Assembly: GCF_000429265.1 (NCBI RefSeq)
Contig: NZ_AUBN01000010.1
Location: forward strand, 62,001-126,000
Direction of reading: 5' to 3'
From: Actinomyces gerencseriae DSM 6844
GTDB lineage: Bacteria; Actinomycetota; Actinomycetes; Actinomycetales; Actinomycetaceae
Length of the DNA: 64,000 bases
This document shows, piece by piece, positions 14,561 through 57,564 of this stretch. Every line of letters begins with the position of its first letter. Within the stretch, counting starts at the first letter, position 1. Position numbers and translations under genes: made by a program. The notes under the pieces were generated by a model. That model did no database searches and was not told the origin of the DNA. It worked only from the letters and a program-made list of their open reading frames with translations.

Positions 14561-15871
14561 TCAGAGCACCAGCGGTGCGAGGAGGAAGCCCAGTACGATG
14601 CACACGATGATCGAGACGGTTCCCGGGATGACGAAGGGATGGGCGAGAACGTTCCCACCCACACGGGTCGAGCCTGTGTCGTCCATCTCCATGGCCGCGA
14701 CCGTCGTCGGATAGTTCGGCAGCAGATAATAGTTGGCCACGGCGGGATAGCTGGCGACCAGAGCCGTCGCGGGCAGGCCGAGGCTCACCATGAGCGGCAT
14801 GAACGCCTTGGTGGTAGCGGCGTGGGAGAACATGAGCGGTGCCGTGAAGTAGAAGAACACCCCGGCCAACCATGGCAGAGCCTGGAACGGTCCCGAGAGC
14901 GCGTTGGAGATGGTCGCCTCGTACTGGTTGACGAAGGCATTCCCGAGCCACGCCAGGCCGAGGATGCAGACGGCGGCCGTCATGCCCGAGCGGAAGGTGT
15001 CCTGATTCGCGATCGTTCCGGTCGGCTTCTTCGCGATAAGGCAGATGATCGCCGCGGTCGCCAGCATGATGGTCATGATGGCGGGCGTTGAGGTCATCGG
15101 AGGGTCCTCGATGATGCCGAGCTCATTGGAGGTCAGGGTCGCGTAGGCGACGACGAGGACGAGGGAGACGAGGAAGAGGAGCAGGCCCGGCACGGCGCCG
15201 GGCGCCGCCGTGTAGTCATCGGCAACCGCCGCGCTCGGCTTGATGAGCCCCTCGGCCCTTCTCTTCCGGTACACGGGGTCGTCCGCGAGCTCGGAGCCCT
15301 GGCGAGCCGCGACGACGGCACCGACGGCGCAGCCGATGAAGGTTGTCGGGATGACGATCGCGAGGCACTGGAGGTAGCCGACGCTCACCGGCTCGAGCGC
15401 GATGACGAGGGCGACCATCGCCGCGGAGATCGGCGAGGCGGCCACGCCCACCTGCGAGGCGACCACCGCGATGGACAGGGGTCGTGAGGGGCGAATGCCG
15501 TGCTCCTTGGCGACATCGACGATGACCGGGATGATCGAGTAGGCGGTGTGCCCGGTGCCGCACATCACCGACATGACGAACGTGACGAACGGAGCGAGGT
15601 AGACGATCTGCCTGGGATGCCTGCGCAGCAGCACCTCGGTGAGATGGACGAGATGGTCCATGGCTCCGACCACCTGAAGGGCGGCGACGGTGCAGATCAC
15701 GGACATGATGATGCCGACGACCTCCCAGGGAGCATCGTCGGCCGAGGTGTGCACACCGGTAGCGGCCAGGACGATGACTCCGGCCGCACCGGCCAGGCCG
15801 ATGCCGATGCCGCCGAGGCGGGCACCGATGATGATGAACAGTAGGACGACGACAAGATGGAACCAGATCAC
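14561..15871 (-). CDS. Anaerobic C4-dicarboxylate transporter, DcuA/DcuB type
   Basis: 436-residue secondary transporter of the Dcu family, which exchanges fumarate, malate, aspartate and succinate in anaerobic bacteria. About ten membrane helices can be traced, starting FHLVVVLLFIIIGARLGGIG. The family signature CGTGHTAYSIIPVIVDVAKE is present, followed by VASQVGVAASPISAAMVALV and the C-terminal LPNYPTTVAAMEMDDTGSTR. GTG 15871 has GGAGGA six bases upstream; the longer in-frame ATG would add a non-hydrophobic tail. A role in fumarate respiration or aspartate uptake is plausible. Aspartate supply to the adjacent NRPS is possible but unproven. Confidence 0.88.
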   Translation of the reverse strand: MIWFHLVVVLLFIIIGARLGGIGIGLAGAAGVIVLAATGVHTSADDAPWEVVGIIMSVICTVAALQVVGAMDHLVHLTEVLLRRHPRQIVYLAPFVTFVMSVMCGTGHTAYSIIPVIVDVAKEHGIRPSRPLSIAVVASQVGVAASPISAAMVALVIALEPVSVGYLQCLAIVIPTTFIGCAVGAVVAARQGSELADDPVYRKRRAEGLIKPSAAVADDYTAAPGAVPGLLLFLVSLVLVVAYATLTSNELGIIEDPPMTSTPAIMTIMLATAAIICLIAKKPTGTIANQDTFRSGMTAAVCILGLAWLGNAFVNQYEATISNALSGPFQALPWLAGVFFYFTAPLMFSHAATTKAFMPLMVSLGLPATALVASYPAVANYYLLPNYPTTVAAMEMDDTGSTRVGGNVLAHPFVIPGTVSIIVCIVLGFLLAPLVL

Positions 15872-16210
15872 GCGACTTCCTCCGGGTGTCGAGACAGGGG
15901 CTCTACCGTGAGGCGGTGCGGCCGCGTCCCGCGGGGCAGCCGAATACCGCGCAACGGCAACAGTGGCGGAGCGCGGAATGCGACGCATCGTCATTCTTAC
16001 TCCCTTACTCTATGAGTCATCGCTCGCTCCCGCCGGCGATTGCGCACCCGGAAACCTTTGATTTACCTGGGAACAACGTGTGACGGGACGGGAAGGTCGT
16101 CGTCAGGTGGGCCGCGCGGCCCGGCACCGCTCCCCGACCGTTCCGTTCGTTATGGAATCCCACAAACGATTGTGCGACGCATTGTGTTCCCGCCTAGATC
16201 GTAGTCGCCG

Positions 16211-16238
16211 TATAAAATGCTACCGTTCCCTGCAGGGA
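16211..16238 (+). promoter_or_regulatory. Candidate NRPS-operon promoter with overlapping palindrome
   Basis: TATAAAAT at 16211-16218 is the best -10 in the region; no good -35 precedes it. The perfect palindrome TCCCTGCAGGGA (16227-16238) sits at the expected transcription start, where a repressor dimer could bind. The leader to the first start codon would be about 140 bases. Confidence 0.4.
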
Positions 16239-16306
16239 GCGGCAGCACTCCATGTCGGTGCTTCCTCCCTCGCTTTGTCCTGTATGTACCTGACTGTGTC
16301 ATCCGC

Positions 16307-16323
16307 ATTGCACAGAATTGCAC
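16307..16323 (+). repeat. Direct repeat ATTGCAC spaced ten bases
   Basis: Two copies of ATTGCAC (16307-16313 and 16317-16323) are one helical turn apart, 40 bases before the FAAL start. The spacing suits protein binding on one DNA face. Confidence 0.35.
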
Positions 16324-16362
16324 TGAGAATCCTGCCGCCCAGCCCGAAGGACGGAACCCCTG

Positions 16363-18009
16363 ATGAACCTCTATCAACGAGCTCGTGAAAGCTGCGCGTC
16401 ATCGAGTGCCTCGATTTCATTCGATGACGGCAGGCGGGTGAGAGAAATCTCGTACGCCGAGTTCTTCCACAACGCGGAGGCGCTGGCTAACGGAATATGC
16501 GACATCTCCCCGACGCCCCGGCCGCAGATAGTCGTCCAGGCCAGGGAGCCATCGAAGTTCCTGAGCGCGTTCTGGGCCGCCATCTCCCTCGATGCGACCG
16601 CCGTCATCGCCCCGATCGTGGAATCCGACACGCATGCGGATCTTATCCGAAGAATTGTCGGACAGCTCGACGATCCGATCATCGTAGGGGATGGGAGAAC
16701 ACTCGATCATATCCGGATCGGGGCTTCCCCCATCGACATCGAGGCAGGCGACGACGGCGATCTCCGGTTGCTCAAGCCGTCCCGGCACTCGGGAGACGAG
16801 TCCTCTGAGTACCAGCCCGTCATTCAGTACTCGTCCGGATCGACGGGAGCCCCTAAAGGCGTGCAACTGCGCGCCGAGTCCTTCATCAGGACTGCTGAGG
16901 CACTCGAGGAGCGTCTGTCCCTCGGCGCACATGACTCGACCTACAGCTGGCTCCCCCTGACTCACAACTTCGCACTGTTCGGATTTCATATATCGGCGAC
17001 TCTCCTTGGGGTCGAGCAGGTCATAGGGACTCCCATCGGATTCATGCTGAATCCGATGTCCTGGCTGCAGCGCATGAGCGAACTCGGTACGACGCTCACC
17101 GGCTCTCCGAATTTCGGTCTCCGCCTCCTACTGAATGCGATCGAAAAGGAAAGGATAAGAGGGCGCGAGCCGGCCCTGGACCTCCATCGGTTAAGAGTGG
17201 TCGTCAGTGGAGCGGAACCACTCGACCTGGCGACGGCGACGAATTTCGAGAAAGCTCTGAGCGCGTACGGATCCCGGCCTCATCTGATCGCACCCGCGTA
17301 CGGGATGTCCGAGACGACCGTCGGCATCTCCGTCCGTCCGCCGGGAGCTCCTCTCAAGTCGATAACTGTCGATCGCGACCGGCTCAGGATCGGCTCCCGG
17401 GTCCACGACGTCCATCATGAGGGTCGCGGCGGACTCGAGGCCGTCGCCCTCGGGACGCCCCTGACGGGCACCTCGGTGAGGATCGTCGACGACGATCGCC
17501 ATGTTCTGGAACCCGGGACGCTGGGGCACGTCGAGGTGACGGGTCCGACGATGATGGTCGGCTACGTCGAGCAAGACGCGTCCCCGGACGAATGGTCTGG
17601 AGAAAACGACTGGTTCAGGACCGGGGACATCGGGTTCGTTCTCGACGACGAGATCTACCTCACCGGGCGCCAGAAGGACATCATTTTCATCAATGGAAAG
17701 AACTACTACCCGGACGACCTCGAACATGTGGTGCTGGGCATTCGCCCGGACCTGGCCGGCCTCATCGCCGTCACGGGAGCGGTGGATCAGAGGAACGGGA
17801 CCGAACGCATCGTGCTCTTCATCGAGCGGGAGTCGCATGATCCGGAGGATCTCGACAAGGAATTCTCCGACATTCGAGCGGGGTTCGGGGACGCAACGCA
17901 CCTCCGGATCGACCAGATGATCGGGGTGAAGGCCCTTCCGCGCACATCCAGCGGCAAGGTGCAGAGATTCCTCCTGAGGGCGACGACGACCGCCGGAGGA
18001 GCCCGATGA
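16363..18009 (+). CDS. Fatty acyl-AMP ligase (FAAL-like) that starts the lipopeptide
   Basis: 548-residue adenylating enzyme expected to activate a fatty acid as acyl-AMP and pass it to the carrier protein of the next gene. Motifs in order: P-loop QYSSGSTGAPKGVQL (Tyr156 onward), SWLPLTHNFALFGFHI, and GSPNFGLRLLL where FAALs have APNFAY. VVSGAEPLDLATATNFEKAL is a FAAL-like 'GAEP' segment. APAYGMSETTVGIS, WFRTGDIGFVLDDEIYLTGR, IIFINGKNYYPDDLEHVV and the catalytic-Lys end PRTSSGKVQR follow. The GAEP and N-x-YP-x-DLE segments separate FAALs from amino-acid A domains. The stop overlaps the next start (ATGA). Chain length of the acid is not readable. Confidence 0.85.
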   Translation: MNLYQRARESCASSSASISFDDGRRVREISYAEFFHNAEALANGICDISPTPRPQIVVQAREPSKFLSAFWAAISLDATAVIAPIVESDTHADLIRRIVGQLDDPIIVGDGRTLDHIRIGASPIDIEAGDDGDLRLLKPSRHSGDESSEYQPVIQYSSGSTGAPKGVQLRAESFIRTAEALEERLSLGAHDSTYSWLPLTHNFALFGFHISATLLGVEQVIGTPIGFMLNPMSWLQRMSELGTTLTGSPNFGLRLLLNAIEKERIRGREPALDLHRLRVVVSGAEPLDLATATNFEKALSAYGSRPHLIAPAYGMSETTVGISVRPPGAPLKSITVDRDRLRIGSRVHDVHHEGRGGLEAVALGTPLTGTSVRIVDDDRHVLEPGTLGHVEVTGPTMMVGYVEQDASPDEWSGENDWFRTGDIGFVLDDEIYLTGRQKDIIFINGKNYYPDDLEHVVLGIRPDLAGLIAVTGAVDQRNGTERIVLFIERESHDPEDLDKEFSDIRAGFGDATHLRIDQMIGVKALPRTSSGKVQRFLLRATTTAGGAR

Positions 18010-19679
18010 TGGCGCATCGCGATCCGGTCGATGTGAGCGCGCACTGCATCGGCATCATCGAAAGGGTGCTGGATGTTGACGGCGTGAGGACGCAGGACGA
18101 CCTGTTCTCCCTGGGCGCCGACTCTCTTCGAATCGCGATGATTCTGAATGAGATCAACGCCGACTTCAACATCGATCTCCTCATCGAGTCGCTTTACGAG
18201 TTCCGAGTCGTCCAGGAGCTGATCGACGAGGTCACGCGACTCACCGAGCGCCACGAGTGCTCTCCCGGGCCCCCCGCTCATCCATCGATAGCGAGCCCGC
18301 CGCCCAGCCCGACTCCGGCCTCCCCCCAGGAGAGGAGAATGTTCGCCATCTGGAGTGGGGCGCCGGAAAGCACGGCGTACAACATCAACGCCGGGGTGCG
18401 CGTCGGCGCGTCCTTCAGGGCCGATCTCGCTGTGGATGCGATCAATCGGATCCTGGATGCGCGGCCAATCCTGAGGAGCACGTTCGACACGGACGCCGAT
18501 GGTGTTCTTAAACGGTACGTCGGCGATCGGGAGGATGCTCAGGTCTTGTCCCGGCGATGGGACCGCGGCGGCGCAGAGGATATTGATCCCGAGGAATTGA
18601 CGCGACCCTTCGATCTTCGAGGGGGACCGCTTCTGCGCGTGCATCTGGTCACCGCGCAGGACGAGAGCGGACTTCTGCTCTTCGAACTTCATCACATTAT
18701 AGGCGACGGACGTTCGATGGCTCTCATCGCCCAGGACTTCATGACCTGCTACAATGCTTTGGCGACGGGTGAGGATCCTTCACTCGCAGAATCATGGGAC
18801 TATGGAGTCTACGAAGAGGAATGGGCCGCTTCCGATGAGGCGGACTCTTCCTCGTCGTCCGGTTCCTACTGGGCCGCCGTTCTCGATTCTCCATATCGTC
18901 TGTGCCCGCCGGTCGGCACGGACTGCTCCAAGAATCGGGGACGGTCACTGTTCGCGACCGTTCCGCGGGCGAAGATCCAGGCGGTGATCGATGCGTGCAA
19001 GGAGGGCGGTGGATTCCAGGCGACAACCGCCGGGGTTCTTCTGACCGCGTACGCCGTCAGTCTCCATCGCTGCTACGACACCGACTCATTCATCATCGGC
19101 GTTCCATTCAGTGGGAGGAATGACGGGCGCTTCGATCGAACAATAGGACTCTTCGTGAACACCCTACCGATCCCCATTCGCCTGCATGACGCGCCGGAGG
19201 GGATCACCGCAGTCGGTTCGGTCTCCCAGCGGCTCAGGGAGGCCCATCAGCATGAGAGCGATCAACTCGACTGGATCATGCGACGGCGCGGAGACGCCGG
19301 CCGCGAGGATCGCAGCCTGTTCTCCGCAATGTTCACCATGGAGAACGTAGGGATTCCCCCGCTCGTGCTTGAGGGCGCCGAGGCCCGGGCGCTCCCGCTG
19401 CACCAGAGCGGGCTGAAGGTTCCGCTCAATCTCCTCGTCACGGAGGAGGAGGACTTCGACGTGGAGCTCTACTTCGACGAGACGCAGATCCCGGTGGCGG
19501 ACGCCGCGGCCGTTGCCGACATGATGCGAATCGTCATCGATGAGCTGGAAGAACGACCGGGAGCCCGGGTTGATGAGTACGGCGGCAACGACTCCACGGA
19601 TCATCCCGTCGTGGATCCGGGGCCGGCGATGTCCTTTCTCGATGACGGATATGAGGCGGGAGACGATGATGCCAGTTGA
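18006..19679 (+). CDS. NRPS protein: acyl carrier (PCP) plus condensation domain
   Basis: 557 residues in two domains. PCP: FSLGADSLR with the phosphopantetheine Ser40. A Pro/Ser-rich linker (residues about 85-108) leads to the C domain: C1 SPQERRMFAIW, C3 FELHHIIGDGRSMAL with His229-His230, C5 VPFSGRNDGRFDRTIGLFVN and TLPIPIRL. The intact HHxxxDG predicts an active domain that joins the fatty acyl group on this PCP to the amino acid on the next protein, as starter C domains do. The acidic C-terminus (FLDDGYEAGDDDAS) may be a docking tail. Start and stop overlap both neighbours. Third-position A/T use is higher than in neighbouring housekeeping genes. Confidence 0.87.
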   Translation: MMAHRDPVDVSAHCIGIIERVLDVDGVRTQDDLFSLGADSLRIAMILNEINADFNIDLLIESLYEFRVVQELIDEVTRLTERHECSPGPPAHPSIASPPPSPTPASPQERRMFAIWSGAPESTAYNINAGVRVGASFRADLAVDAINRILDARPILRSTFDTDADGVLKRYVGDREDAQVLSRRWDRGGAEDIDPEELTRPFDLRGGPLLRVHLVTAQDESGLLLFELHHIIGDGRSMALIAQDFMTCYNALATGEDPSLAESWDYGVYEEEWAASDEADSSSSSGSYWAAVLDSPYRLCPPVGTDCSKNRGRSLFATVPRAKIQAVIDACKEGGGFQATTAGVLLTAYAVSLHRCYDTDSFIIGVPFSGRNDGRFDRTIGLFVNTLPIPIRLHDAPEGITAVGSVSQRLREAHQHESDQLDWIMRRRGDAGREDRSLFSAMFTMENVGIPPLVLEGAEARALPLHQSGLKVPLNLLVTEEEDFDVELYFDETQIPVADAAAVADMMRIVIDELEERPGARVDEYGGNDSTDHPVVDPGPAMSFLDDGYEAGDDDAS

Positions 19680-22600
19680 CGACGTTTCGAAGAACCTCTC
19701 CTTCAGCGGCTCCCGCTACAGAGCGCACCGTCAGCACTGGCGCACGGTCCTGACCGTCGCGAGGGAGCTCGCGTTCACCAACGGTCGGGACTCGGGACGC
19801 CCTGAGGGGACCGGACCGTCTCGTCACTCGGTCGTTCTCCCGTCGTCCCGGGGCGAGGCCCTGGAACGGCTCACTGGCGGGAATGCGGATGCGTTGACGG
19901 CGTCGCTCGCGGTCGCACTCGCCTGCGTTGCCGACAGGCTCGGATACCTGACGGGCTCCGGTGAGGTGAGGTTCTGGTTCTCCTCCGGGTCGGCCGCGGA
20001 CGGAGGTCCGACGGACGGTCCTCTTCCGGCGGTGGTCGGGGACCCGGCGACGACGACCGTGGGGGATGCTCTCCTCGACTCGGCGCGGTGCGTCGCCGCG
20101 TCGCGCTCGTATCGCGATTATCCGTACACGATGCTCCAGGAGCACGGTCGTGGCACGACGGACGCCCCGTTCGAACGAGGCGTGGTCCTGACCGTCGGGC
20201 GATCGGGTACCAGCGCGGACGAGGCGGGCGTCGGCGGGCGCCCCCGATGCTGGCTCGACATCTCGAAGACGGTCGAAGGGTATCGGTTGACCCTTCGAGC
20301 CCCCGCGGGATCATGCGACGCGCCGGAGGCCGAAGCCGCCCTGTCAACGGTCGCGGACGTCGTGGGTCGCCTGCGCGGATCACGTCGCCTGCTGCTCGCG
20401 GACCTCGTCGACGACGTGCTGGAGCAGAGCCCGGCGTCGATGCTCGCGGGCCCGACGCCGGCGGGGGAGGCCGCTGCGCCGTCGCTATCGGATCTTCTCA
20501 CTCGGGTCGTGACAGCACACCGGGATGAGAGTGCGTTGACGCAGGGCGGCCGGTCGATGACGTACGGCGAGCTCGACGCCCATGCGGAACGACTGGCCGG
20601 CCGGGTGCTGGACCATATCGGCCGCGAGAAACTCGTCGGGATGATCGTTCGTCCCTCGATCGACTGCATTATCGGCATGCTGGCATGCATCAAGGCGAGT
20701 GTGGGCTTCGTCCCGCTGGATCCGGACAGTCCGGAGTCACGGCTTTCAGCGATCCTCACTGATGGAGAGCCCGCCGCTGTCATGGCGGGCCCGGATGACG
20801 ATGAGGTCGTCATGCGTCTCGGGCTCCCCCGTCTTCCTCTGGAGAGCGCCTGCGATACCGGCTCCTCCCCCGCCCTGCCGGATCTCCCCGATGAGACGCC
20901 CGACGACGTGGCGTATGTGATATACACATCGGGTTCCACAGGCCGTCCGAAGGGCGTCAAGGTGACCCGGGCCAATGTTGCCAACTACTTGTCGTGGTTC
21001 GTGGAGCTCGCGGAGCTGTCGCCGGCGGACAATGCGCTACTGGTATCCTCAATGGCTTTCGACCTCGGCTACTCGGGTGTTCTTGGAGCGTTGTCCTGCG
21101 GCGCCTGCCTGCATGTGATCCCGAAATCCACGTACAGGGACACCTCGAAACTGCTGCGGTACATCGCGGACGAACGGATCACATTCATCAAGATGACTCC
21201 TTCGCTCTTCTCCCTCGTGGTGGACGAGCTCCGACGCGAACAATTCGATCTTGCCGCGCTCCGACTCGTCGTGCTCGGGGGTGAGCGTCTGCGCGTCGAC
21301 GACGTCGAGTCTCTGAAGGAGATCCTGCCATCGACACGGGTGATGAATCACTATGGGCCCACGGAGACGACGATCGGGTCGTTGGCCGGATATTATGAGG
21401 CCCATCGGGACGCGTTCCGGCGGGGAAGATCCATCATCGGGACGCCGGTCGCCGGCACCAAGGTGTATATCACGAACGATGATCTGAAACCGCAGCCCGC
21501 CGGAGTCGCCGGCGAAATCGTCGTCAGTGGCGCGGCCGTCGGTGCGGGATACGTGAACGACGACGAGCTCACGGCTCGGTCGTTCGTCGACTTCCCGGCG
21601 GACGGCTCCCCCGCGTACCGCACAGGAGATCGCGGCAGGCTCCTGCCCGGCATCGGCGTGGAGTACCTGGGACGAGTCGACGACCAGGTCAAGGTTCACG
21701 GATACCGCGTGGACACGCACGAAGTGGAGACCGCGGTCCTCAAGACCGGGCACGTGCATGAGGCTGTCGTGGTTCCGATCGAGACGACGACCGGAGTGAA
21801 ACTGGCCGCGTACTGCACGACCGATCCCGAGTTCGATGAGGAGTCTGCGCGCTCAGAAGCATCACGACTGCTTCCCTCATACATGGTTCCGGCATGGTTC
21901 GTGGAGATCGACGAGATTCCTCTCACGGCCAACGGCAAGGTCGACCGCGCGGCGCTGCCGGAACCACGGCGTGCGGGCGGGACGCAGTCGGGTCACGGCC
22001 CATCCAACGATCTGGAGATGCGGATCCTGAGCATCTGGCGCGATGTGCTTGCTCTTGATCATGAGTGCGGTGTCGATGAGGAGTTCCTGAGCCTGGGGGG
22101 CGATTCGATCCAGGCGATGCAGATCGCCGGACGGCTCCGCGCCATCGGTGTCGAGGCGGAGGTCGCCGAGATCCTGAACGGCGGGACGGTCCGTAGGCTC
22201 GCGCAGACGTCTGCCGAGTCCTCCGAGATCGAGACGGAACCTGAGCGGCATGTCGGCCCGGTGCCGTGCGGCCCGATGATCTCCCGGTGGATGGAGCGGG
22301 TCGGGTACTGGGATCATTGGAATCAGGCCTTCGCGTTCCACGTCGATGCGCATGTCGATGATGACGCGCTGGCTCTCGGATTCGAGCGCCTGGTGGAGCG
22401 GCACGACATGCTGAGAGTTCGCGCCGTGCTGTCGGGCCAGGACGACGGCCTCAGCCTCGTGATCGATGGCGACACGACCCCTTCGGCTCACATCACCTCC
22501 GATTCCTTGAGGGTATCGGGTGAGATCGCACCCGACCTCATTCAAGAGGTGGCGGACCGCCTCCACCGCGACATATGTCCGCGTCGTGCGCTGAACCTCT

Positions 22601-24924
22601 CGTACTGCCTGATCGAGAGCGACGGCGAGCAGGTCCTGGTGGTCGCGATCCACCACCTGGTGGTCGATGGCGTATCCTGGCGCATCATCTGCGAAGAGCT
22701 CTCGGCGCTCATCGAGGATCCGGGGGCGCGCCTTCCGGCCGTCCGGACGCCCTACCCGGCATGGGTCGAGCGCATGAGCAGCGCCTGGGGCGATGACATC
22801 GATCTGGCCTACTGGGGCGCGCAGGCGGAGTCGGGGGCCGGAGGCCCTTCATCGGATCACGGATCGCAGCGCGACGCGACGGTGGTGCGCAGGACGTTCG
22901 ACGGGGGTGCGGCGCAGTCCATATTGACGGACGCCAACTCATGCCTGTCAACCAATACCGGCGAACTGATCGTCGCAGCACTGAGCAGGCCCCTCTCGGA
23001 TCTGCTGGGAGTTTCGGATTTCGACATTTGCATTGAGTCTCATGGGAGATTCTCCGACGAATCGCTGGGCGATCCGTCAGGCGCGGTGGGCTGGTTCACC
23101 TCTTCTTATCCCATCCACGTGGACGGTAGTGCCGAGGATGTTCGCGATCGTATTGTTCAAGCAAAGGAGACAATGCGAGGAGTTCCTTCACTGGGTGCCT
23201 CGTATAACTATTTGCGGTACAGCAGGAAGGTCCCCGCGGGACCGTCCGAGCCCGTCGTCTGCATCAACTTCCTCGGAGACTGGAGATCGGGCGGGCACGG
23301 GTCCGGGGGGCTGACCCCTCTCCCCTATGATACCGGGGAGTGGCGGGATCCCGATTCTCCGCTTCAGTACGCATTGACGATCGACGCGATCTCAGTCGGC
23401 GAGGGTCTCTCCATCCGAGCGACATTCTCTTCCGGGGAGATCGACGAGGGTGGCGTCCGCCGACTGCTCATGGAATTCGAGAGGGATGCGGCCGAGCTGG
23501 TCCGATACTGCTCGGATCCCGCTCATGCCGAGAAGACCGCGTCCGACTTCTCCGGCCTGGATCTTCCACAAGATCAGTTCGAGGCTCTGGTGGACGGCCT
23601 TCCAGGGGAACGTAGGTCCACCGACGTGGATGACATTCTTCCGATGTCGCCGTGCCAGAGGACGATGTGGCGAGACTCCTGCCGCACGCCTCGAACCATT
23701 CAACCGTATTATCATTCACGCGCTTTCCGCGTCAGGGGGCCACTGGACGCGACGAAGATCGAGGAGGCATCGGGACGACTGGCTCGCCGGCATTCCGCAT
23801 TACGTACCGTTGTGACACCGGTGGGCGATGCGGTCCCGGTCCAGGTGGTGCTGAAGGATGCTCGCATACCGATCACTCTTACCGATATTGGAAACCTGTC
23901 AGCCGACGAGATCGGGAACTACCTCGAGTCCAGGACTCTGGTTGACGCCGCTCTCGGATATCGTGATCCGGGACAGCCGCTGACTCGTGTGGAAATATTG
24001 AGGGTGAGTCCTGACGATCACTTCGTGATCTGGTCGAACTCTCATCTGATCCTGGATGGGTGGAGCCGCATGACGCTGCTCTCGGAGCTCATTGAGATGC
24101 TTCGCGCGCCGGAGTCTCTTGAGCGCGAGGGCGCCGGTGGGTTCGGCGAATATATCAGATTCAATTCAAGACCGGATGTCGAGAGGGAGGCGCTGAGCTA
24201 CTGGGAGGATTATCTCGCGGGCTACGAGACGGTGTCGCTGTTCGATGATGGCGGAAGGATCGAGGACAGCCTCGTGAGCCTTCGTGAGATCAGGACCTCG
24301 GTCAGAGGCTCGGTCATGCAGCGCATCGAGGATCTGAGTGCTGCCGAGAACGTCACTGTCAGTGCCGCTCTTCAAGTGCTCGTCGGATTGGCGATTGCGC
24401 GCGCTTGCGGCTGTGATGATGTGACCATGGCGACTGTGGTTTCCGACCGGCCTGCGGCCATAAGGGGCATCGGAAGCATGGTCGGCCCCTTGGTGAACAC
24501 GGTTCCCGTCAGGGTTCGCAGGAACGGTGGGGAGACAGTCGGGGATCTGGCGCGTCGGCGAGTGGAGGAGGTGCTGGAAGGAGGTAGGTTCGCATACTTC
24601 TTCGATCCCTACCTGGGCGATCCGGACGCCATGTGCGTACGGCTCGCGATCGAGACCTATGAGGTCCCCGATTCCGTGCGCGGCACATTCATGGACAGGC
24701 GGATCATCGATGACATGCGCATGACGGATCGGGTCGGTGGGGATCTCGTGATCTTCATCGTTCCCGGGGACGGGGTGAGCGTTTCCATCCAGGCGAATCC
24801 GGTTCGGATCAGTGCCGAACGGCAGAAGGAGCTCCTGGATCAGTTGGTAGAATATATTGTGCTGTTGAGCGAGCGTGGATTCGGCGTGAGCGCGAGTGCG
24901 GAAAGCGAGGATGTCCGATCATGA
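19666..24924 (+). CDS. NRPS module (half-C)-A(Asp)-PCP-E-C
   Basis: 1752-residue synthetase. Residues 1-275 resemble only the C-terminal lobe of a condensation domain and have no HHxxxDG. A domain about 277-760: YTSGSTGRPKG, NHYGPTETTIG, YRTGDRGRLLPG and NGKVDRAALP. Pocket residues aligned to GrsA read D466 L S K509 V G H I G K758, that is DLSKVGHIGK, one change from the aspartate code DLTKVGHIGK. PCP: LSLGGDSIQ with Ser814. Epimerisation domain about 860-1300: HHLVVDGVSWRI (His996-His997), IESHGR, AVGWFTSSYPI and INFLGDW. Final C domain about 1320-1752: ILPMSPCQ, NSHLILDGWS and VGPLVNTVPV; the first His of HHxxxDG is Ser1459, the catalytic His1460 remains. No thioesterase or second module follows. 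Start is ATG 19666 (or 19669) after GGGAG, overlapping the previous gene by 14 bases. Confidence 0.9.
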   Translation: MMPVDDVSKNLSFSGSRYRAHRQHWRTVLTVARELAFTNGRDSGRPEGTGPSRHSVVLPSSRGEALERLTGGNADALTASLAVALACVADRLGYLTGSGEVRFWFSSGSAADGGPTDGPLPAVVGDPATTTVGDALLDSARCVAASRSYRDYPYTMLQEHGRGTTDAPFERGVVLTVGRSGTSADEAGVGGRPRCWLDISKTVEGYRLTLRAPAGSCDAPEAEAALSTVADVVGRLRGSRRLLLADLVDDVLEQSPASMLAGPTPAGEAAAPSLSDLLTRVVTAHRDESALTQGGRSMTYGELDAHAERLAGRVLDHIGREKLVGMIVRPSIDCIIGMLACIKASVGFVPLDPDSPESRLSAILTDGEPAAVMAGPDDDEVVMRLGLPRLPLESACDTGSSPALPDLPDETPDDVAYVIYTSGSTGRPKGVKVTRANVANYLSWFVELAELSPADNALLVSSMAFDLGYSGVLGALSCGACLHVIPKSTYRDTSKLLRYIADERITFIKMTPSLFSLVVDELRREQFDLAALRLVVLGGERLRVDDVESLKEILPSTRVMNHYGPTETTIGSLAGYYEAHRDAFRRGRSIIGTPVAGTKVYITNDDLKPQPAGVAGEIVVSGAAVGAGYVNDDELTARSFVDFPADGSPAYRTGDRGRLLPGIGVEYLGRVDDQVKVHGYRVDTHEVETAVLKTGHVHEAVVVPIETTTGVKLAAYCTTDPEFDEESARSEASRLLPSYMVPAWFVEIDEIPLTANGKVDRAALPEPRRAGGTQSGHGPSNDLEMRILSIWRDVLALDHECGVDEEFLSLGGDSIQAMQIAGRLRAIGVEAEVAEILNGGTVRRLAQTSAESSEIETEPERHVGPVPCGPMISRWMERVGYWDHWNQAFAFHVDAHVDDDALALGFERLVERHDMLRVRAVLSGQDDGLSLVIDGDTTPSAHITSDSLRVSGEIAPDLIQEVADRLHRDICPRRALNLSYCLIESDGEQVLVVAIHHLVVDGVSWRIICEELSALIEDPGARLPAVRTPYPAWVERMSSAWGDDIDLAYWGAQAESGAGGPSSDHGSQRDATVVRRTFDGGAAQSILTDANSCLSTNTGELIVAALSRPLSDLLGVSDFDICIESHGRFSDESLGDPSGAVGWFTSSYPIHVDGSAEDVRDRIVQAKETMRGVPSLGASYNYLRYSRKVPAGPSEPVVCINFLGDWRSGGHGSGGLTPLPYDTGEWRDPDSPLQYALTIDAISVGEGLSIRATFSSGEIDEGGVRRLLMEFERDAAELVRYCSDPAHAEKTASDFSGLDLPQDQFEALVDGLPGERRSTDVDDILPMSPCQRTMWRDSCRTPRTIQPYYHSRAFRVRGPLDATKIEEASGRLARRHSALRTVVTPVGDAVPVQVVLKDARIPITLTDIGNLSADEIGNYLESRTLVDAALGYRDPGQPLTRVEILRVSPDDHFVIWSNSHLILDGWSRMTLLSELIEMLRAPESLEREGAGGFGEYIRFNSRPDVEREALSYWEDYLAGYETVSLFDDGGRIEDSLVSLREIRTSVRGSVMQRIEDLSAAENVTVSAALQVLVGLAIARACGCDDVTMATVVSDRPAAIRGIGSMVGPLVNTVPVRVRRNGGETVGDLARRRVEEVLEGGRFAYFFDPYLGDPDAMCVRLAIETYEVPDSVRGTFMDRRIIDDMRMTDRVGGDLVIFIVPGDGVSVSIQANPVRISAERQKELLDQLVEYIVLLSERGFGVSASAESEDVRS

Positions 24925-25397
24925 GCATTGACGATACGAATGGGCTGAAGGCCCTGTTGCGTAGTATTGGTAGTTCCGGACGTTTTCAGGAGGACGCGAC
25001 GGGGCGCGGGCGCGACGAGTCTCCGGAGATCGTTCTTGAGGGGAGGGATCCTGGTGGGGTCTCGTTGGCGGTGACTCTGGAGGATGTGACCCACCCATTG
25101 TTCGGGACCATGGCCCATTGGCTGATCTGGAACATCGAGCCGACGGACAGGATCCCGGCCGCAATTCCTCATGGTAAGGAGGTGGATTCTCTTTCCGCAC
25201 GCCAGGGCCTGGCCTACGGGTGGCATCGTTATCGCGGGCCCAAGCCACCGCGCGGCAAGACACACACCTATCGGTTCACCGTATACGTGCTGGATGCGCG
25301 GTTGGATCTTCCGGCACGCTCTCGGCACAGGGCCCTGCTCCGGGCCATCGAGGGGCACGTGCTCCAGCGGGCCGTCATAGAGGGAACCTTCGAGTAA
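24921..25397 (+). CDS. PEBP-family (YbhB/YbcL-like) protein inside the NRPS operon
   Basis: 158-residue phosphatidylethanolamine-binding-protein homologue. Family landmarks are LAVTLEDVTHPLFGTMAHWL with IWNIEPTD following, GWHRYRGPKPPRGKTHTYRF, and TVYVLDARLDLPARS near the end. The usual D-P-D-A-P stretch is replaced by EDVTHPLF, so the ligand pocket differs. No signal peptide is seen, so it should be cytoplasmic. Its ATG overlaps the NRPS stop and its TAA touches the exporter ATG, which ties it to the pathway. It might bind the acyl-aspartyl product or a phospho-ligand, or act on release; none of this is shown. Confidence 0.82.
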   Translation: MSIDDTNGLKALLRSIGSSGRFQEDATGRGRDESPEIVLEGRDPGGVSLAVTLEDVTHPLFGTMAHWLIWNIEPTDRIPAAIPHGKEVDSLSARQGLAYGWHRYRGPKPPRGKTHTYRFTVYVLDARLDLPARSRHRALLRAIEGHVLQRAVIEGTFE

Positions 25398-26801
25398 ATG
25401 ACCGCATCAATGAGACGCGTACGCCCGCCGATCGTCCTGCTGACCTGCTGCACGGCCCTCTTCATCTCCTCGATGAACGCGGCTCTCATCAATGTCGCAC
25501 TGCCCTCGATCCGTGCCGACCTGGGCGCGTCGGCCGCGCAGCTGCAGTGGCTGGTTGACGCCTACACGCTCGTTCTCGGCACGCTCCTACTGGCCAGTGG
25601 GTCGCTCGCGGACCGGTTCGGCCGCAAGAAGGCATTCATCCTCGGGCTGGGCCTGTTCGCCGTGACGTCCTCCTTCTGCGCCCTGGCACCCTCCGTCCTC
25701 TGGCTCATCGTGGGGCGGGGGCTGCAGGCGGTGGGAGGAGTTCTGCTCACGCCGGTGGCGCTGTCGATCATCTCGGCCACCTATACCGATCCGGCCGAAC
25801 GCGCTCGCGCCATCGGGGTGTGGGGCGCCGTCATCGGCATCTCGTTGGGGTCCGGTCCGCTCCTGGGAGGGTTTCTCACCGAGTCCTTCGGCTGGGAGGC
25901 GACTTTCTGGATGAATGTGCCCGTCTGCACGGCGGCTCTCGTGGCGACCGTGGTGTTCGTACCGGAGTCGAGGGCGGCCAGACCCCGCCGCCTCGATCCG
26001 GCCGGCCAGCTGCTCATCATGGCCTTCCTCGGCGGGACGGTGGGAGCCCTGATCGAGGGGCCGGAAAGGGGCTGGGACTCGCCGCTCGTACTCGGCCTGA
26101 TGGTTCTGGCGATGCTGGGCCTGATCGCATTCATCGCCGTCGAGAGGCGGGTGACGGACCCGGTCGTCGACATCCGCTTCTTCGGCTCGGCCCCTTTCAG
26201 CGCCGCGGTGATCATCGCCGTCGCGGTCTCCACCGCTCAGGGGAGCTTCCTCTTCCTCTTCTCGCTGCTCCTGCAGGGCCCCTTCGGATACACGCCGTTG
26301 GGGACGGGAGCCCTTCTGCTGCCGCTGGCGGTGGCCCTGGCCGTGAGCTCACCCCTTGCGGGCCGACTCATCGCCAGCAGGGGAACACGACCGGCGCTCG
26401 TGACCGGCGGGGCCTGCGTCGCGGCGTCGAGTCTGCTGCTGACCTTCCTGCGCGCGGATGCCAGTACGTGGTACTTCGTCGTCGTTCTGATGATAGCGGG
26501 CGCGGGCCTCGGTTTCATCAACCCGCCCATCTCGACGACGGCGGTCGAGGGGCTCCCGCCCTCGCAGTCGGGCGCCGCTTCGGGGATCGCGGGAGCCTCC
26601 CGGCAGGTGGGTGTGGCGCTCGGCGTGGCTCTGGCCGGTTCCGTGGCGCGAGCGGATGATATGAGTCTCCTCCAGGCCAGTCACGGCATGTTCGCCCTGG
26701 TGACCGGGCTCGGAGTCGGGATCGTCCTGCTGGGGATCGTCTCGACGAGCGCGTGGGCGCACGAGACTCGGCGGAGGCTCGCGGGCCTGTTCGACGAGTG
26801 A
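25398..26801 (+). CDS. MFS exporter, DHA2 (EmrB/QacA) family
   Basis: 467-residue proton-driven efflux transporter, about 14 membrane helices. Helix 1 region reads CCTALFISSMNAALINVALP. Motif A is GSLADRFGRKKAFILG, and the motif C-like stretch is IGVWGAVIGISLGSGPLLGG with FLTESFGWEATFWMNVPV. Its ATG follows the PEBP stop with no gap, so it is the last gene of the operon and the likely exporter of the lipopeptide, or self-protection. It ends convergent with lysE. Third-position G+C is back near the genomic level here, unlike the NRPS genes. Confidence 0.9.
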   Translation: MTASMRRVRPPIVLLTCCTALFISSMNAALINVALPSIRADLGASAAQLQWLVDAYTLVLGTLLLASGSLADRFGRKKAFILGLGLFAVTSSFCALAPSVLWLIVGRGLQAVGGVLLTPVALSIISATYTDPAERARAIGVWGAVIGISLGSGPLLGGFLTESFGWEATFWMNVPVCTAALVATVVFVPESRAARPRRLDPAGQLLIMAFLGGTVGALIEGPERGWDSPLVLGLMVLAMLGLIAFIAVERRVTDPVVDIRFFGSAPFSAAVIIAVAVSTAQGSFLFLFSLLLQGPFGYTPLGTGALLLPLAVALAVSSPLAGRLIASRGTRPALVTGGACVAASSLLLTFLRADASTWYFVVVLMIAGAGLGFINPPISTTAVEGLPPSQSGAASGIAGASRQVGVALGVALAGSVARADDMSLLQASHGMFALVTGLGVGIVLLGIVSTSAWAHETRRRLAGLFDE

Positions 26802-26869
26802 GCGCCGACGGCGTCCTCGAGGACTCGGTTCCCAATTCTGGCTACCGCGCCCTGAGTACGAAGAACCGG

Positions 26870-27487
26870 TTATCCGATCGCGACACGGACTCCGAGGCCC
26901 AGGAGCACGGCGCCGAGGACCCGTTCCATCCAGGTGGCGACCGCGCCGCGGGTGAGAAGCCTTCTCGCAGAGGATGCGAGTAGCGCGTACGTGGACAGGC
27001 AGATGATCGCGATGACGAACTCGATCGCCATGAGAACCATCGCCCAGGCGAATACCGGCCCGTCCTCAGGGATGAACTGCGGGATCACTGCAAGATAGAA
27101 GATCCCCATTTTCGGGTTCAGGAGATCCGCGATCAGACCTGTCCAGAACGCCTTCGGCACGGGTGCGCTCGCCGGCGATGTCCCGGAGTCCCCGGGTGCG
27201 AGCCACGCGCCTGCGGTGATGATCGCCCGCATCCCGAGGAGGCCCAGATAGATCGCTCCCGCCCAGCGGAGGATCTCGAAGGCCGCCGGGATTCGGATGA
27301 TGAACGTCGCGACACCCGCAGCCGCCGCGATCCCCCACGCCAGCGACCCTGTGGCCGCTCCGAGGGCGACGGCCACTCCATGTGCGATGCCGTGAGCGAG
27401 CGAGCTGCGCAGCGCCAGTGCGACGTCGGGCCCAGGGGTGATCCCGAAGACGAGAGCAACTGGAACGAAAGACCAAACCATTGTCAT
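26870..27487 (-). CDS. lysE: LysE-family amino-acid exporter
   Basis: 205-residue exporter of the LysE/RhtB superfamily for basic or other amino acids. The signature FGITPGPDVALALRSSLAHG is at the N-terminus, followed by five to six helices (WGIAAAAGVATFIIRIPAAF, WAGAIYLGLLGMRAIITAGA). The conserved WTGLIADLLNPKMGIFYLAV lies in the middle and VLGAVLLGLGVRVAIG at the end. It is divergent from a LysG-type regulator, the same arrangement as lysEG of Corynebacterium, which supports the lysE name. ATG 27487 is chosen; ATG 27481 is two codons later. Substrate is inferred from the pairing. Confidence 0.82.
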   Translation of the reverse strand: MTMVWSFVPVALVFGITPGPDVALALRSSLAHGIAHGVAVALGAATGSLAWGIAAAAGVATFIIRIPAAFEILRWAGAIYLGLLGMRAIITAGAWLAPGDSGTSPASAPVPKAFWTGLIADLLNPKMGIFYLAVIPQFIPEDGPVFAWAMVLMAIEFVIAIICLSTYALLASSARRLLTRGAVATWMERVLGAVLLGLGVRVAIG

Positions 27488-27512
27488 GCCAGGACGGTAC
27501 GACTCCGGTAAC

Positions 27513-27527
27513 ATGAAAGAAAGTCAT
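27513..27527. promoter_or_regulatory. LysR-type operator dyad in the lysE-lysG spacer
   Basis: ATGA-AAGAAAG-TCAT is a perfect four-base-arm dyad of the T-N11-A kind bound by LysR proteins, in the 68-base divergent spacer. A TAACAT that could serve as the lysG -10 overlaps its left edge (27509-27514). Confidence 0.5.
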
Positions 27528-27555
27528 TTTTGCTTCCCTCCCGTGAGGAAATCTT

Positions 27556-28479
27556 ATGTTCAAGTCCTCGCATCTCGAGGCGCTCAGCGCCGTCTGCGAG
27601 TCCGGCTCCTTCGAGGTCGCCGCTTCGACGTTGAGGATTACGCAGTCCGCTCTGAGCCAGCGGATCGGTGCGCTGGAGCGCGAAGCGGGTCTCGTCCTGG
27701 TGCAGCGATCACGGCCTGTCGAGCCCACGGCTCCTGGCCGGATCATTCTCGGCCTCGCCCGGCAGGTCGCCCTCCTCAATTCCGACGCCGAACACTTGAT
27801 CGCAGTCGAGAACTTGCAGACCGAGAACGTCGAGATGACACGCGTTTCCCTGGCGATCAACGCGGACTCCATCTCGACGTGGTTCCAACCGGTCGTCGCG
27901 CAGATCGCAGCGGAGCGCTCACTGCTGCTCGACCTCCATGTCGAGGACCAGGACCACACCGAGACGCTGCTCAGGGAGGGTCGAGTGATGGCCGCGGTCA
28001 CGACCTCCAACGCTCCGGCGCCCGGATGCTCCGTGGAAGAACTGGGCGCGATGGTGTACTGGTCGGTCTGCGCGCCCTCCCTGATCGAGGGGCTGGAGGA
28101 GGAGGTGGACCTGGGCGCGCTGCCGATGCTGCGCTACAACATCAAGGATGATCTTCAGCACTCCTACCTGAGGCGGATGGCGGTTCGGAACCAGCCGCCA
28201 GTCCACTACATCCCGTCGAACCGGGAGTTCCTCATGGCCGCACGCCTCGGGCTCGGATGGGGTGTGCTCCCGGAAGGGCAGATCTCCGATGATCTCGAGA
28301 CCGGTCGGCTGGTCAAACTCCATCCTGATCGCAGCGTGCAGGTACCGCTCTACTGGCAGCGGTGGAGGTTCGACTCACCCACGCTCGACGCACTGACCAC
28401 GATCGTGGAGCGAGCAGGGGCGCTCGAACTCGCCCCCTGGAACGGGCAGGAAAAACGCAAGGCTGGCCGGAAACAATGA
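27556..28479 (+). CDS. lysG: LysR-family regulator LysG/ArgP
   Basis: 307-residue transcriptional activator. The N-terminal winged helix is VCESGSFEVAASTLRITQSA with LSQRIGALEREAGLVLVQR. The effector domain holds VSLAINADSISTWFQPVVAQ and FLMAARLGLGWGVLPEGQ, both typical of the ArgP/LysG branch that senses lysine, arginine or histidine. In Corynebacterium LysG with its amino-acid ligand turns on lysE. The divergent lysE and the T-N11-A dyad between them match that system. The last ten residues (QEKRKAGRKQ) are a basic tail of no known function. Confidence 0.87.
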   Translation: MFKSSHLEALSAVCESGSFEVAASTLRITQSALSQRIGALEREAGLVLVQRSRPVEPTAPGRIILGLARQVALLNSDAEHLIAVENLQTENVEMTRVSLAINADSISTWFQPVVAQIAAERSLLLDLHVEDQDHTETLLREGRVMAAVTTSNAPAPGCSVEELGAMVYWSVCAPSLIEGLEEEVDLGALPMLRYNIKDDLQHSYLRRMAVRNQPPVHYIPSNREFLMAARLGLGWGVLPEGQISDDLETGRLVKLHPDRSVQVPLYWQRWRFDSPTLDALTTIVERAGALELAPWNGQEKRKAGRKQ

Positions 28480-28627
28480 CCCGACCCGGGCTTCGCCGTC
28501 GGCCTCTGGCTGCCGCACTCAAACTGTTGGGAGGAGGCGTGGCGGTACGTCATGCGGGAGGTGGGCGACTCGGTGCGGTCAGACGAGAGGCTTGGTGATG
28601 CCTCACCCGTCGGGCTGGAGTCGGAGA

Positions 28628-28663
28628 AAAACCCGCATCATGGATTCACCATGACGCGGGTTT
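28628..28663 (-). terminator. Rho-independent terminator of tRNA-Pro
   Basis: On the minus strand AAACCCGCGTCATGG pairs with CCATGATGCGGGTTT around a five-base loop, with one mismatch, and the stem ends in five Ts. It starts about 15 bases after the tRNA-Pro CCA. This is the clearest terminator in the window. Confidence 0.85.
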
Positions 28664-28677
28664 GAGTGTGGACTTAA

Positions 28678-28754
<77 letters not shown>

Positions 28755-56151: not shown

Positions 56152-57552
56152 TCACGCACGCCCCTCGGATCCGGGTCGGATCCGGGTGCCGTCGGCCACC
56201 TCTCCGGGAGAGCCCTCCTCCCCCACATGAGCCTCGCCGGTGACGACGACGTCGGCCCCGAAGGTCCAGTCGCCCTCCACCGTCAGCGACTCGGCCCCTC
56301 GGATGGAGGGGACCCCGTGGGGGAACCGCGCTTCGAAGTCGCCGATCTTCTTGTAGTAGCGCGGGTCGAGGCTCACTGTGCAGGCCCGCTCCGGCACCAT
56401 TCGCAGCAACCCGGCATCGTCGATCTCGTAGACGTCGGAGCGCACGAGCAGCAGATCGTTGGTGGTCTTGACCGGCAGGAAGCGGGAGCGGGGAACCTCG
56501 ATGGCGGTCGCGCCCTCGAAGGCCTCCACCGCCGCCCCCATGGCGGTCTCGAGCTGGATGACCGGCGTCGAGGAGGAGTCGGCCGGATCGACCGTCTTCG
56601 CGTTCTTGATCAGCGGCAGGCCGAGGATCCCCTTGCGCGCGACGAGCATGTCGCGCAGGACCTCCAGGTCGAACCAGAGGTTGTTGGTGTGGAAGAAGGG
56701 GTGACGGTACTGGTCGGTGAAGAAGCGCATCTCGTCGGCCGGTGTCTGCGCGGTGTCGCGCAGGATGATGCGGCCGTCGCTCTTGCGCACCGCCAGGTGG
56801 CCGCCCTTGACGTCGGCCGGCGTGCGGCGGCACATCTCAGGGGCGTAGGGGGCGCCGGAGGCGGCGAACCAGCCGGCGATGCGAGCGGAGGGGGAGGCCC
56901 CCAGATTGTCCGAGTTGGAGGTCATGGCGTACGTGTAACCGCGCTCCAGCAGGGCGTCGAGGACGCCCGAGGCGACCAGGGCGGTGTAGATGTCGCCGTG
57001 CCCGGGCGGGCACCATTCGAGATCGGGATCCGCCTCCCATGTCACCGGGGTGAGGTCGTCGGCGCGCAGCTTGGGCTCGCGGTTCTGCAGGAAGTCCAGG
57101 GGCAGACCATCGACCTCGATGCCGGGGTGCTCGGCGAGCGCCGCGAGCGTGTCCCGACGGGTGCGGAAGGAGTCCATGAAGATCAACGGCAGAGCGACTC
57201 GGTGGAGCCGGCGCGCCGCCATCACCTGGTCGACCAGCAGGTCGAGGAACGACTTGCCGTCGCGCACGGGCAGCAGCGACTTGGCCCGGTCCATCCCCAT
57301 GGAGGTGCCCAGACCCCCGTTGAGCTTGATCAGAACGGTGCGCGACAGCGCCTCGCGGGCGTCGTCCTCCCCGATTTCGACATCCTCGATGGAGTCGATC
57401 CGCGTGAGGGGCTCGATGGTGTCCTCGGGGATCAGACCGGTGGCCCCATCCTCCAGGGCCCGGTAGTAGTGACTGAAGACATCAATGGCCTGCTCGGCGA
57501 CGTCGGCGTCGCGCATCTTGCGCTGGGCAGCGGTGAGTCCGTTCTCGCTCAT
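56152..57552 (-). CDS. UTP-glucose-1-phosphate uridylyltransferase, UDPGP (eukaryotic-type) family
   Basis: Makes UDP-glucose (or a related UDP-sugar) from UTP and sugar 1-phosphate. The 466 residues follow the UDPGP family rather than bacterial GalU: LIKLNGGLGTSMGMDRAKSL with LPVRDGKSFLDLL, PLIFMDSFRTRRDTLAAL, WCPPGHGDIYTALVASGVLD and MTSNSDNLGASPSARIAGWF. Later come HTNNLWFDLEVLRDML, LPLIKNAKTVDP, VPRSRFLPVKTTNDLLLVRS and a C-terminal beta-helix stretch. ATG 57552 is leaderless. UDP-glucose would feed wall or capsule glycans; no such genes adjoin. Confidence 0.9.
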   Translation of the reverse strand: MSENGLTAAQRKMRDADVAEQAIDVFSHYYRALEDGATGLIPEDTIEPLTRIDSIEDVEIGEDDAREALSRTVLIKLNGGLGTSMGMDRAKSLLPVRDGKSFLDLLVDQVMAARRLHRVALPLIFMDSFRTRRDTLAALAEHPGIEVDGLPLDFLQNREPKLRADDLTPVTWEADPDLEWCPPGHGDIYTALVASGVLDALLERGYTYAMTSNSDNLGASPSARIAGWFAASGAPYAPEMCRRTPADVKGGHLAVRKSDGRIILRDTAQTPADEMRFFTDQYRHPFFHTNNLWFDLEVLRDMLVARKGILGLPLIKNAKTVDPADSSSTPVIQLETAMGAAVEAFEGATAIEVPRSRFLPVKTTNDLLLVRSDVYEIDDAGLLRMVPERACTVSLDPRYYKKIGDFEARFPHGVPSIRGAESLTVEGDWTFGADVVVTGEAHVGEEGSPGEVADGTRIRPGSEGRA

Positions 57553-57558
57553 GGGAGC

Positions 57559-57564
57559 AGCATA
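57559..57564 (-). promoter_or_regulatory. -10 element giving leaderless uridylyltransferase mRNA
   Basis: TATGCT on the minus strand, six bases, then ATG 57552. Confidence 0.55.

Follow-up and report, generated by a model that had tools for sequence, protein, structure and literature searches.

A five-gene operon of Actinomyces gerencseriae predicted to encode a compact acyl-aspartate synthetase

The iturin family of nonribosomal peptide synthetases (NRPSs) has as its hallmark a hybrid first subunit with ketosynthase (KS) and aminotransferase domains. In the bacillomycin D line of this family (BamA-BamB-BamC), BamA and BamB end in a complete condensation (C) domain, and BamB and BamC begin with a C-lobe remnant. 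Three other kinds of system, as described in the sections of the respective papers drawn on here, are pertinent as well: (i) in glidonin synthesis, a terminal C domain, C13, has been proven to release the chain onto free putrescine, and it precedes A*, T and TE domains (PMC10587159), (ii) ThdA of thermoactinoamide synthesis has, in its starter module, a truncated N-terminal C domain (C*) that is called probably inactive and possibly influences the adenylation (A) domain behind it (PMC7253712), and (iii) genes for phosphatidylethanolamine-binding proteins (PEBPs) of the YbhB type lie within the clusters for tautomycin, tautomycetin and fungal maleidrides (PMC8793217, PMC8902786), and the fungal maleidride PEBPs increase the yield of anhydride coupling (PMC8902786). 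Here, we analyze an operon in a stretch of 64,000 nucleotides of Actinomyces gerencseriae DSM 6844 (contig NZ_AUBN01000010.1, positions 62,001 to 126,000 of the forward strand; hereafter the window) from a genome of 3.42 Mb in 28 contigs. Like the bacillomycin D line, the operon has a related acyl ligase (30-31% identity), a complete C domain facing a putative C-lobe remnant, and an epimerisation (E) domain followed by a C domain of the D-donor type; unlike it, it has a stand-alone fatty-acyl-AMP ligase (FAAL), a protein consisting of a peptidyl carrier protein (PCP) and a C domain, a PEBP and an exporter of the major facilitator superfamily (MFS), is without polyketide synthase (PKS), aminotransferase or thioesterase domains, and would incorporate one amino acid instead of seven. 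Its terminal C domain would, as in glidonin synthesis, hand the chain to a small free nucleophile, whereas in contrast to C13 it is the last domain and is placed after an E domain. The truncated C domain ahead of an A domain recalls ThdA, except that a complete C domain is present on the preceding protein, and the PEBP gene recalls the clusters named above, which are polyketide or maleic-anhydride pathways whereas the operon is an NRPS system in which anhydride chemistry would be speculative. In total, it appears to be a compact orphan acyl-aspartate synthetase of known part types and a variant of FAAL-initiated NRPSs, not a new kind of system.

The five genes are consecutive on the plus strand (16363-26801) and encode, in order, the FAAL, the PCP-C protein, the NRPS, the PEBP and the MFS exporter; the successive junctions are a 4-base overlap, a 14-base overlap, a 4-base overlap and a gap of 0. 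The 14-base overlap is given by the likely NRPS start at 19666, the longest open frame beginning at 19540. The Pfam domains of the five proteins are AMP-binding; PP-binding and Condensation; AMP-binding, AMP-binding_C, PP-binding and two Condensation stretches; PBP, i.e. PEBP; and MFS_1, and they include no thioesterase, KS or aminotransferase domain. No sigma-70-like site was found on the plus strand before 16363, and terminator-like sites number five (4.1 expected by chance). Coordinates and Pfam domains agree with a first-pass annotation, made from the sequence alone, in the five-gene order and its overlaps and zero gap, and the profile matches of the last two proteins likewise bear out its call of a PEBP followed by an exporter.

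16363-18009, plus strand: FAAL-type acyl-AMP ligase, 548 residues (Pfam AMP-binding, FAAL insertion)
18006-19679, plus strand: PCP-C protein (P0002), 557 residues (Pfam, motifs, domain tree)
19666-24924, plus strand: NRPS (P0003) with putative C-lobe remnant, A, PCP, E and terminal C domains (Pfam; start by overlap)
19717-20148, plus strand: C-lobe-aligned part of the NRPS N-terminus, residues 18-161 (hhalign)
20503-21939, plus strand: A domain, pocket DLSKVGHIG (Pfam AMP-binding and AMP-binding_C; pocket residues)
22021-22206, plus strand: PCP of the NRPS, LGGDS (Pfam PP-binding)
22315-23553, plus strand: E domain with HHLVVDG, ESHGR and VGWFTS (Condensation profile, tree, motif positions)
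23632-24909 (end estimated), plus strand: terminal C domain, SHLILDG (Condensation profile match at 23632-24579; tree)
24921-25397, plus strand: PEBP / YbhB-YbcL family protein, 158 residues (PF01161, TIGR00481)
25398-26801, plus strand: DHA2-type MFS exporter, 467 residues (PF07690, TIGR00711)

The residue that enters the product is predicted from the pocket of the A domain. By alignment with the A domains of BamB, BamC and G958 (the last a genome of the same class), this pocket reads DLSKVGHIG, and the same mapping gave DALSVGEVV, DLTKIGEVG, DVQFIAHVV, DAKDLGVVD, DVWHFSLID and DFWNIGMVH for six bacillomycin A domains, which we take to specify, in this order, Tyr, Asn, Pro, Glu, Ser and Thr. 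Seven of the eight residues of the Asp code of surfactin SrfAB, DLTKVGHI as cited in the sections of PMC3207962 and PMC10548584 used here, are the same in the operon. The similar code DLTKVGHVGK accompanies beta-hydroxy-Asp in the part of the tistrellabactin report that we drew on (PMC10391617), and a survey, in the part consulted, notes that Asp and Asn A domains may have a code of this type in common (PMC12283262). The activated residue is accordingly predicted to be Asp, with Asn or hydroxylated Asp being less likely. A tree built from 16 domains joins the E domain to three bacillomycin D E domains (100/100) and the terminal C domain to three bacillomycin D D-donor C domains, which are located after an E domain (80/82), on a branch of 2.6, and the tree program warned that long branches leave placements unsure; not included were a motif at BamB 1525 that is due to chance and, from contig C14, the Cy-like domains and a below-cut-off domain at 10449. 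The E domain carries HHLVVDG, ESHGR and VGWFTS, motifs that serve as signatures of such domains. The distance from the active-site motif to the C-terminus is 315 residues in BamA, 312 in BamB, 313 in G958 and 329 in the PCP-C protein, all of which face a C-lobe subunit, and 294 residues in the NRPS, which suggests that the latter has no docking-like tail. Pocket and domain classes thus fit the aspartyl residue that had initially been proposed and the single amino-acid module with epimerisation and a terminal C domain that had been read from the sequence.

The first protein belongs to the AMP-forming ligase family (AMP-binding, 128.5 bits; Pfam cut-off 29.9) and has 66 residues between two motifs where four acyl ligases have 65-69 and a single fatty-acyl-CoA ligase has 40. 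An insertion of this kind sets FAALs apart from CoA ligases. By these features the protein is a FAAL-like ligase, as initially proposed, with a fatty acid as its predicted cargo, and we place it in a diverged branch of the FAALs. Its top-scoring matches in a plasmid collection are Bacillus NRPS proteins (30-31% identity), one of them annotated as bacillomycin D BamA. In the PDB it matches 6ulx best (168 bits), a chain named amino acid adenylation domain-containing protein; the longer form of the same protein and FAALs of polyketide synthases (162 bits) come next. 6ulx reportedly selects a keto acid, so that a non-fatty substrate is conceivable. Two other FAAL-like ligases were noted along the way: in a genome of the genus (G059, contig C25, 10973-15604; locus L061), a stand-alone ligase of 565 residues adjoins a MacB/FtsX-type ABC pair with no NRPS seen by eye within 20 kb, and on the mobilizable Levilactobacillus brevis plasmid pKB290-3 (5478-14972), a FAAL-like AMP-binding protein is annotated together with a phosphopantetheinyl transferase, a SagB-type dehydrogenase, an NRPS, a thioesterase and a permease (locus L073).

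In the PCP-C protein, the PCP serine is residue 40 and the C motif HHIIGDG lies at 229, and the C domain groups with that of G958 (97/98). The NRPS N-terminus, compared by hhalign with a C-lobe profile built from 13 complete domains, C or E, of BamA, BamB, BamC and G958, scored 30.2, and the alignment keeps its register from where the lobe begins; by comparison, none of 300 shuffles exceeded 25.1 and none of 65 segments from other window proteins exceeded 24.4, and the positives, three remnants and two C-lobes outside the profile, scored 79-137. With the C-lobes of the operon itself it aligned poorly, and its single-sequence fold, C-lobe-like in the order of helices and strands by eye, was too poor for a structure search (predicted local distance difference test score 38.7). 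We suggest that this stretch is most likely a strongly diverged C-lobe remnant that faces the complete C domain of the upstream protein. G958 (loci L080/L081, contig C1) provides a comparable case, in which an A-PCP-C protein precedes an NRPS whose N-terminus is a C-lobe remnant. Because the same boundaries occur between BamA and BamB and between BamB and BamC, the split in the operon corresponds to a known architecture, and the remnant would most likely be an ordinary feature of such inter-subunit boundaries rather than a damaged domain.

Combining the domains, motifs, pocket, domain classes and split boundary, all of which are read from the sequence, as is the insertion described below, we suggest, at a probability of roughly 0.55, that the operon encodes a FAAL-initiated two-subunit NRPS that makes an N-acyl-D-aspartyl compound, which is released by the terminal C domain onto a free nucleophile, exported by the MFS protein and bound, or protected against, by the PEBP. 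In this scheme, (i) the FAAL would adenylate an acid, probably a fatty acid, and load it onto the PCP of the second protein, (ii) the C domain of the second protein would acylate the L-Asp bound to the third protein's PCP, with the C-lobe remnant serving as a platform for the A domain and as a docking face for the upstream complete C domain, as in bacillomycin D, (iii) the E domain would turn acyl-L-Asp into the D form, (iv) the terminal D-donor-type C domain would release acyl-D-Asp onto a small free nucleophile, most likely an amine, and (v) the MFS protein would export the product, and the PEBP would bind, or protect against, the product or an intermediate. We infer the substrate of the FAAL, the activity and acceptor of the last C domain, the function of the remnant and the roles of the PEBP and MFS proteins. 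By the FAAL insertion, the Asp-type pocket and the groupings of the E and D-donor C domains, the predicted series from acyl-PCP via acyl-L-Asp-PCP to acyl-D-Asp-PCP is well supported; of the N-acyl-D-aspartyl product passed on by the last C domain in the first-pass annotation, the part up to acyl-D-Asp-PCP is therefore supported, and the transfer to an acceptor is a proposed step. Release onto a free nucleophile would, by analogy with glidonin, be its simplest form. Elsewhere in the genome, C domains were found only on contig C14, in a separate region with its own thioesterases, and PCPs in short frames outside the operon number one on contig C12 and one on C14. This region of C14 (L032-L034) is a second NRPS/PKS region, partly yersiniabactin-like in our reading, with NRPS proteins carrying methyltransferase and thioesterase domains, a ketosynthase-PCP-thioesterase protein, an ABC pair and an MFS protein; a gene at C14 49066-49734 looks by eye like a phosphopantetheinyl transferase gene.

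Several observations speak against this pathway. In the terminal C domain, the motif is SHxxxDG in place of HHxxxDG, i.e. the first His is Ser while the second His, the Asp and the Gly are kept, and this motif together with the very long branch suggests that the domain may be inactive; the tail-length argument, which rests on five proteins, is weak. In the engineering of glidonin synthesis, as described in the part of the paper drawn on here, a C domain alone was insufficient and C plus A were needed (PMC10587159), no amine-making gene was recognised by Pfam in the operon, and no intact relative that could show the acceptor step to be conserved was found in the collections searched. The ligase is only 24-31% identical to the aligned acyl ligases and below the cut-off of all NCBIfam FAAL/acyl-ligase models listed (best 252.8 bits against 572; PRK09192, 240 against 600). 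The N-terminal 288 residues of the NRPS matched no Pfam model even at E<=10, scored 0.2 bits with a C-lobe hidden Markov model (shuffles up to 0.4) and 2.2 bits with a model from the three remnants (shuffles up to 5.5), and reached at best E 0.03 in BLASTP against four sequences; in hhalign they matched the three remnants alone more weakly than complete C-lobes (24.8 over 51 columns). The "half-C" of the first-pass annotation is thus C-lobe-like in profile-profile comparison, most likely as part of a known inter-subunit arrangement, and it is not seen by Pfam, hidden Markov models or BLASTP, the three other methods. Finally, the PEBP has outlasted the synthetase in a related genome, as described next, which gives no support to a PEBP that serves biosynthesis alone.

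The PEBP is placed in its family by PF01161 (77 bits, cut-off 24) and TIGR00481 (71.3 bits, cut-off 57.75), and five PDB sequences match it, with a PEBP (4beg) and YbhB of E. coli as the best. Its closest homologue in the genus, 89% identical and with an open frame, is in the member G026, where a locus (L088; contig C15, 9678-10464) aligns over 792 columns at 83.6% DNA identity with window positions 24622-25411, i.e. the end of the NRPS gene and the whole PEBP gene. Compared with the window, the NRPS piece in G026 has single-base gaps and reaches a stop two codons sooner, and it is a decayed tail; the flanking genes include two glycosyltransferase genes and one for a DUF6270 protein. The NRPS-PEBP neighborhood is accordingly present in two species. 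Between the two PEBP genes, dN is 0.056 and dS 0.443 (dN/dS ~0.13), indicating purifying selection, and because this selection is kept where the NRPS is decayed, it argues for a PEBP role independent of the pathway, e.g. in self-protection or as an ordinary cell role. The MFS protein is over the cut-off of both PF07690 and TIGR00711 (268.5 bits), and its gene has DNA homologues in G015, G022 and G059 (73-74%) and G014 (65%) and a second copy elsewhere in its own genome (72%). The FAAL, PCP-C, NRPS and PEBP genes have a G+C content of 62-64% and a G+C content at third codon positions (GC3) of 0.72-0.76, compared with 69% and 0.86 for the MFS gene and 66-68% and 0.86-0.95 for the genes dcu and PGI. 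The operon may therefore combine a core that is foreign or changes fast with parts resident in the genus.

These data bear on a competing explanation that we consider only slightly less probable than the pathway proposed above, namely that the PEBP and MFS genes are genes of the genus acquired for self-protection or by chance and have no part in synthesis. PEBP homologues exist elsewhere in the genus (49-63% identity in eight genomes besides the 89% homologue in G026), the MFS gene has DNA homologues at 72-74% in three genus genomes and a native-like GC3, and the selection on the PEBP in G026 persists beside no more than an NRPS tail; on the other hand, both genes overlap or abut their neighbors within one operon, the PEBP gene shares the low G+C and GC3 of the synthetase genes, and the NRPS-PEBP order is present in two species. 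A further and unlikely explanation is that a longer, iturin-style line has lost its third subunit and that the synthetase is its front part, so that N-acyl-D-Asp is freed by slow hydrolysis or nothing is made. The terminal C domain does group with the D-donor class, which normally faces a further module, and lacks the first His of its motif, bacillomycin synthesis does continue from BamA through BamB to BamC at such boundaries, and the decayed cousin in G026 illustrates that erosion of this operon can happen. However, the NRPS stop and the PEBP start overlap by 4 bases and leave no visible scar of a lost subunit, the NRPS tail directly precedes the PEBP gene in G026 also, the tail is short as at the end of a line, and the NRPS frame is open to its end with a GC3 of 0.67-0.81 throughout.

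Less probable still is that the acid loaded by the ligase is not a fatty acid but, e.g., an aromatic or keto acid and that the product is a small acyl-D-Asp conjugate instead of a lipopeptide. That an adenylation domain outranks the polyketide synthase FAALs among its PDB matches (6ulx, 168 bits) and that it falls short of every FAAL model would fit such a substrate, whereas the FAAL-type insertion, and top-scoring plasmid relatives that are acyl-ligase regions of Bacillus NRPSs, one annotated BamA, argue for a fatty acid. We also considered, as a long shot, that the last C domain cyclizes acyl-D-Asp to an N-acyl aspartic anhydride or imide and that the PEBP is a dedicated handler of this reactive C4 species; the link of PEBPs to C4 anhydrides is here a speculation by analogy. 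If this were true, the association of PEBPs with cyclic C4 anhydrides would extend from polyketides to nonribosomal peptides, and bacterial PEBPs would gain a defined chemical job in an NRPS pathway.

Across the collections searched, the best relatives of the synthetase proteins have 24-38% identity. The FAAL has matches at E<=1e-30 in 5 of 49 genus genomes, its own included (others 27-31%), and at E<=1e-45 in 54 of 396 phylum genomes, again including its own (best others 33-36%). For the PCP-C protein, matches are present in 9 of 59 relatives including its own genome at E<=1e-3 (best other 28% over 466 residues), in its own genome only among 396 order genomes at E<=1e-40, and in its own genome and G958 (30%) among 394 class genomes at E<=1e-38; in the searches of 394-396 genomes, at most three candidates were scored per genome. 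Short exact peptide patterns in a species collection gave 21 pattern matches and no relative for the PCP-C protein and 18 pattern matches with one relative at 27% for the NRPS. In the plasmid collection, 348 records match the PCP-C protein and 235 the FAAL (P0001), all below 60%; among the matches listed, identities are 24-29% and 26-35%, respectively, and 35-37% for the A domain. At the DNA level, none of the other 48 genus genomes matches 16.02-24.62 kb (E<=1e-10, six candidates scored per genome). In these collections, then, there is no intact close relative, the exception being the NRPS tail and PEBP gene in G026; the gene order, which had seemed unfamiliar from characterized pathways, has no close match in the genome and plasmid collections, and, judging by the papers listed in a literature search, none deals with an acyl-D-aspartate pathway of this kind.

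The operon lies within a 12.7 kb insertion between the 5' end of dcu, a resident neighbor, and the 3' end of a tRNA-Pro gene.

15995-28677: insertion, between the dcu 5' end and the tRNA-Pro 3' end
14561-15994, minus strand: dcu, C4-dicarboxylate transporter gene, resident neighbor of the operon
26870-27514, minus strand: LysE exporter (Pfam), in the same insertion
27556-28479, plus strand: LysR-type regulator (Pfam), in the same insertion
28678-28754, minus strand: tRNA-Pro(ggg), right border of the insertion

Ten dcu loci of 13-16 kb in relatives were compared (L052-L060, L062), and the five that hold a ThiF gene were scanned for tRNAs. In four of these (L052, L055, L056 and L059), a distance of ~0.46-1.3 kb separates dcu from tRNA-Pro, and the two are oriented to each other as they are in the window; L060, the fifth, has dcu inverted. 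As four relatives have the junction without the operon, we conclude that the operon, together with the LysE and LysR genes, was inserted at the 3' end of tRNA-Pro. There is no sign of an attachment repeat, since 13.0-28.6 kb contains no copy of 14-18 bases from the tRNA-Pro region (at most one mismatch), and Pfam recognised no recombinase family among the scanned genes of the insertion. In seven (L036-L042) of 12 loci on the PGI side, similarity to the window ends at ~10.4 kb and returns at tRNA-Pro, and in these loci the gene at window 10.5-11.3 kb and the tRNA stretch are rearranged; content and orientation of the region beside tRNA-Pro (window 10.4-28.7 kb) thus vary among members of the genus, and the region may be a hot spot of insertion, with no recombinase recognised. 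A role of dcu in aspartate supply was rejected: a 77-82% homologue is present in 18 other genus genomes, dcu adjoins tRNA-Pro without the operon in four, and it probably predates the insertion. Similarly, the LysE/LysR pair, which stands elsewhere in G059 and G061 (76-78% DNA identity) where no synthetase DNA was found, was rejected as part of the pathway and probably lies outside it. Elsewhere in the window, an open reading frame of 1008 codons (57485-60511; AT skew -0.249 at 58-60 kb) has only below-cut-off matches to DUF2157 and DUF2339.

With three genes, the synthetase constitutes a minimal NRPS line from acyl loading to release, in which all steps but the last are predictable. It would be a tractable system for asking how a terminal D-donor C domain behaves on its own and whether an upstream C domain can act in trans by virtue of a C-lobe remnant. 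Likewise, a PEBP under purifying selection beside a decayed synthetase tail may offer a way into the function of bacterial PEBPs.

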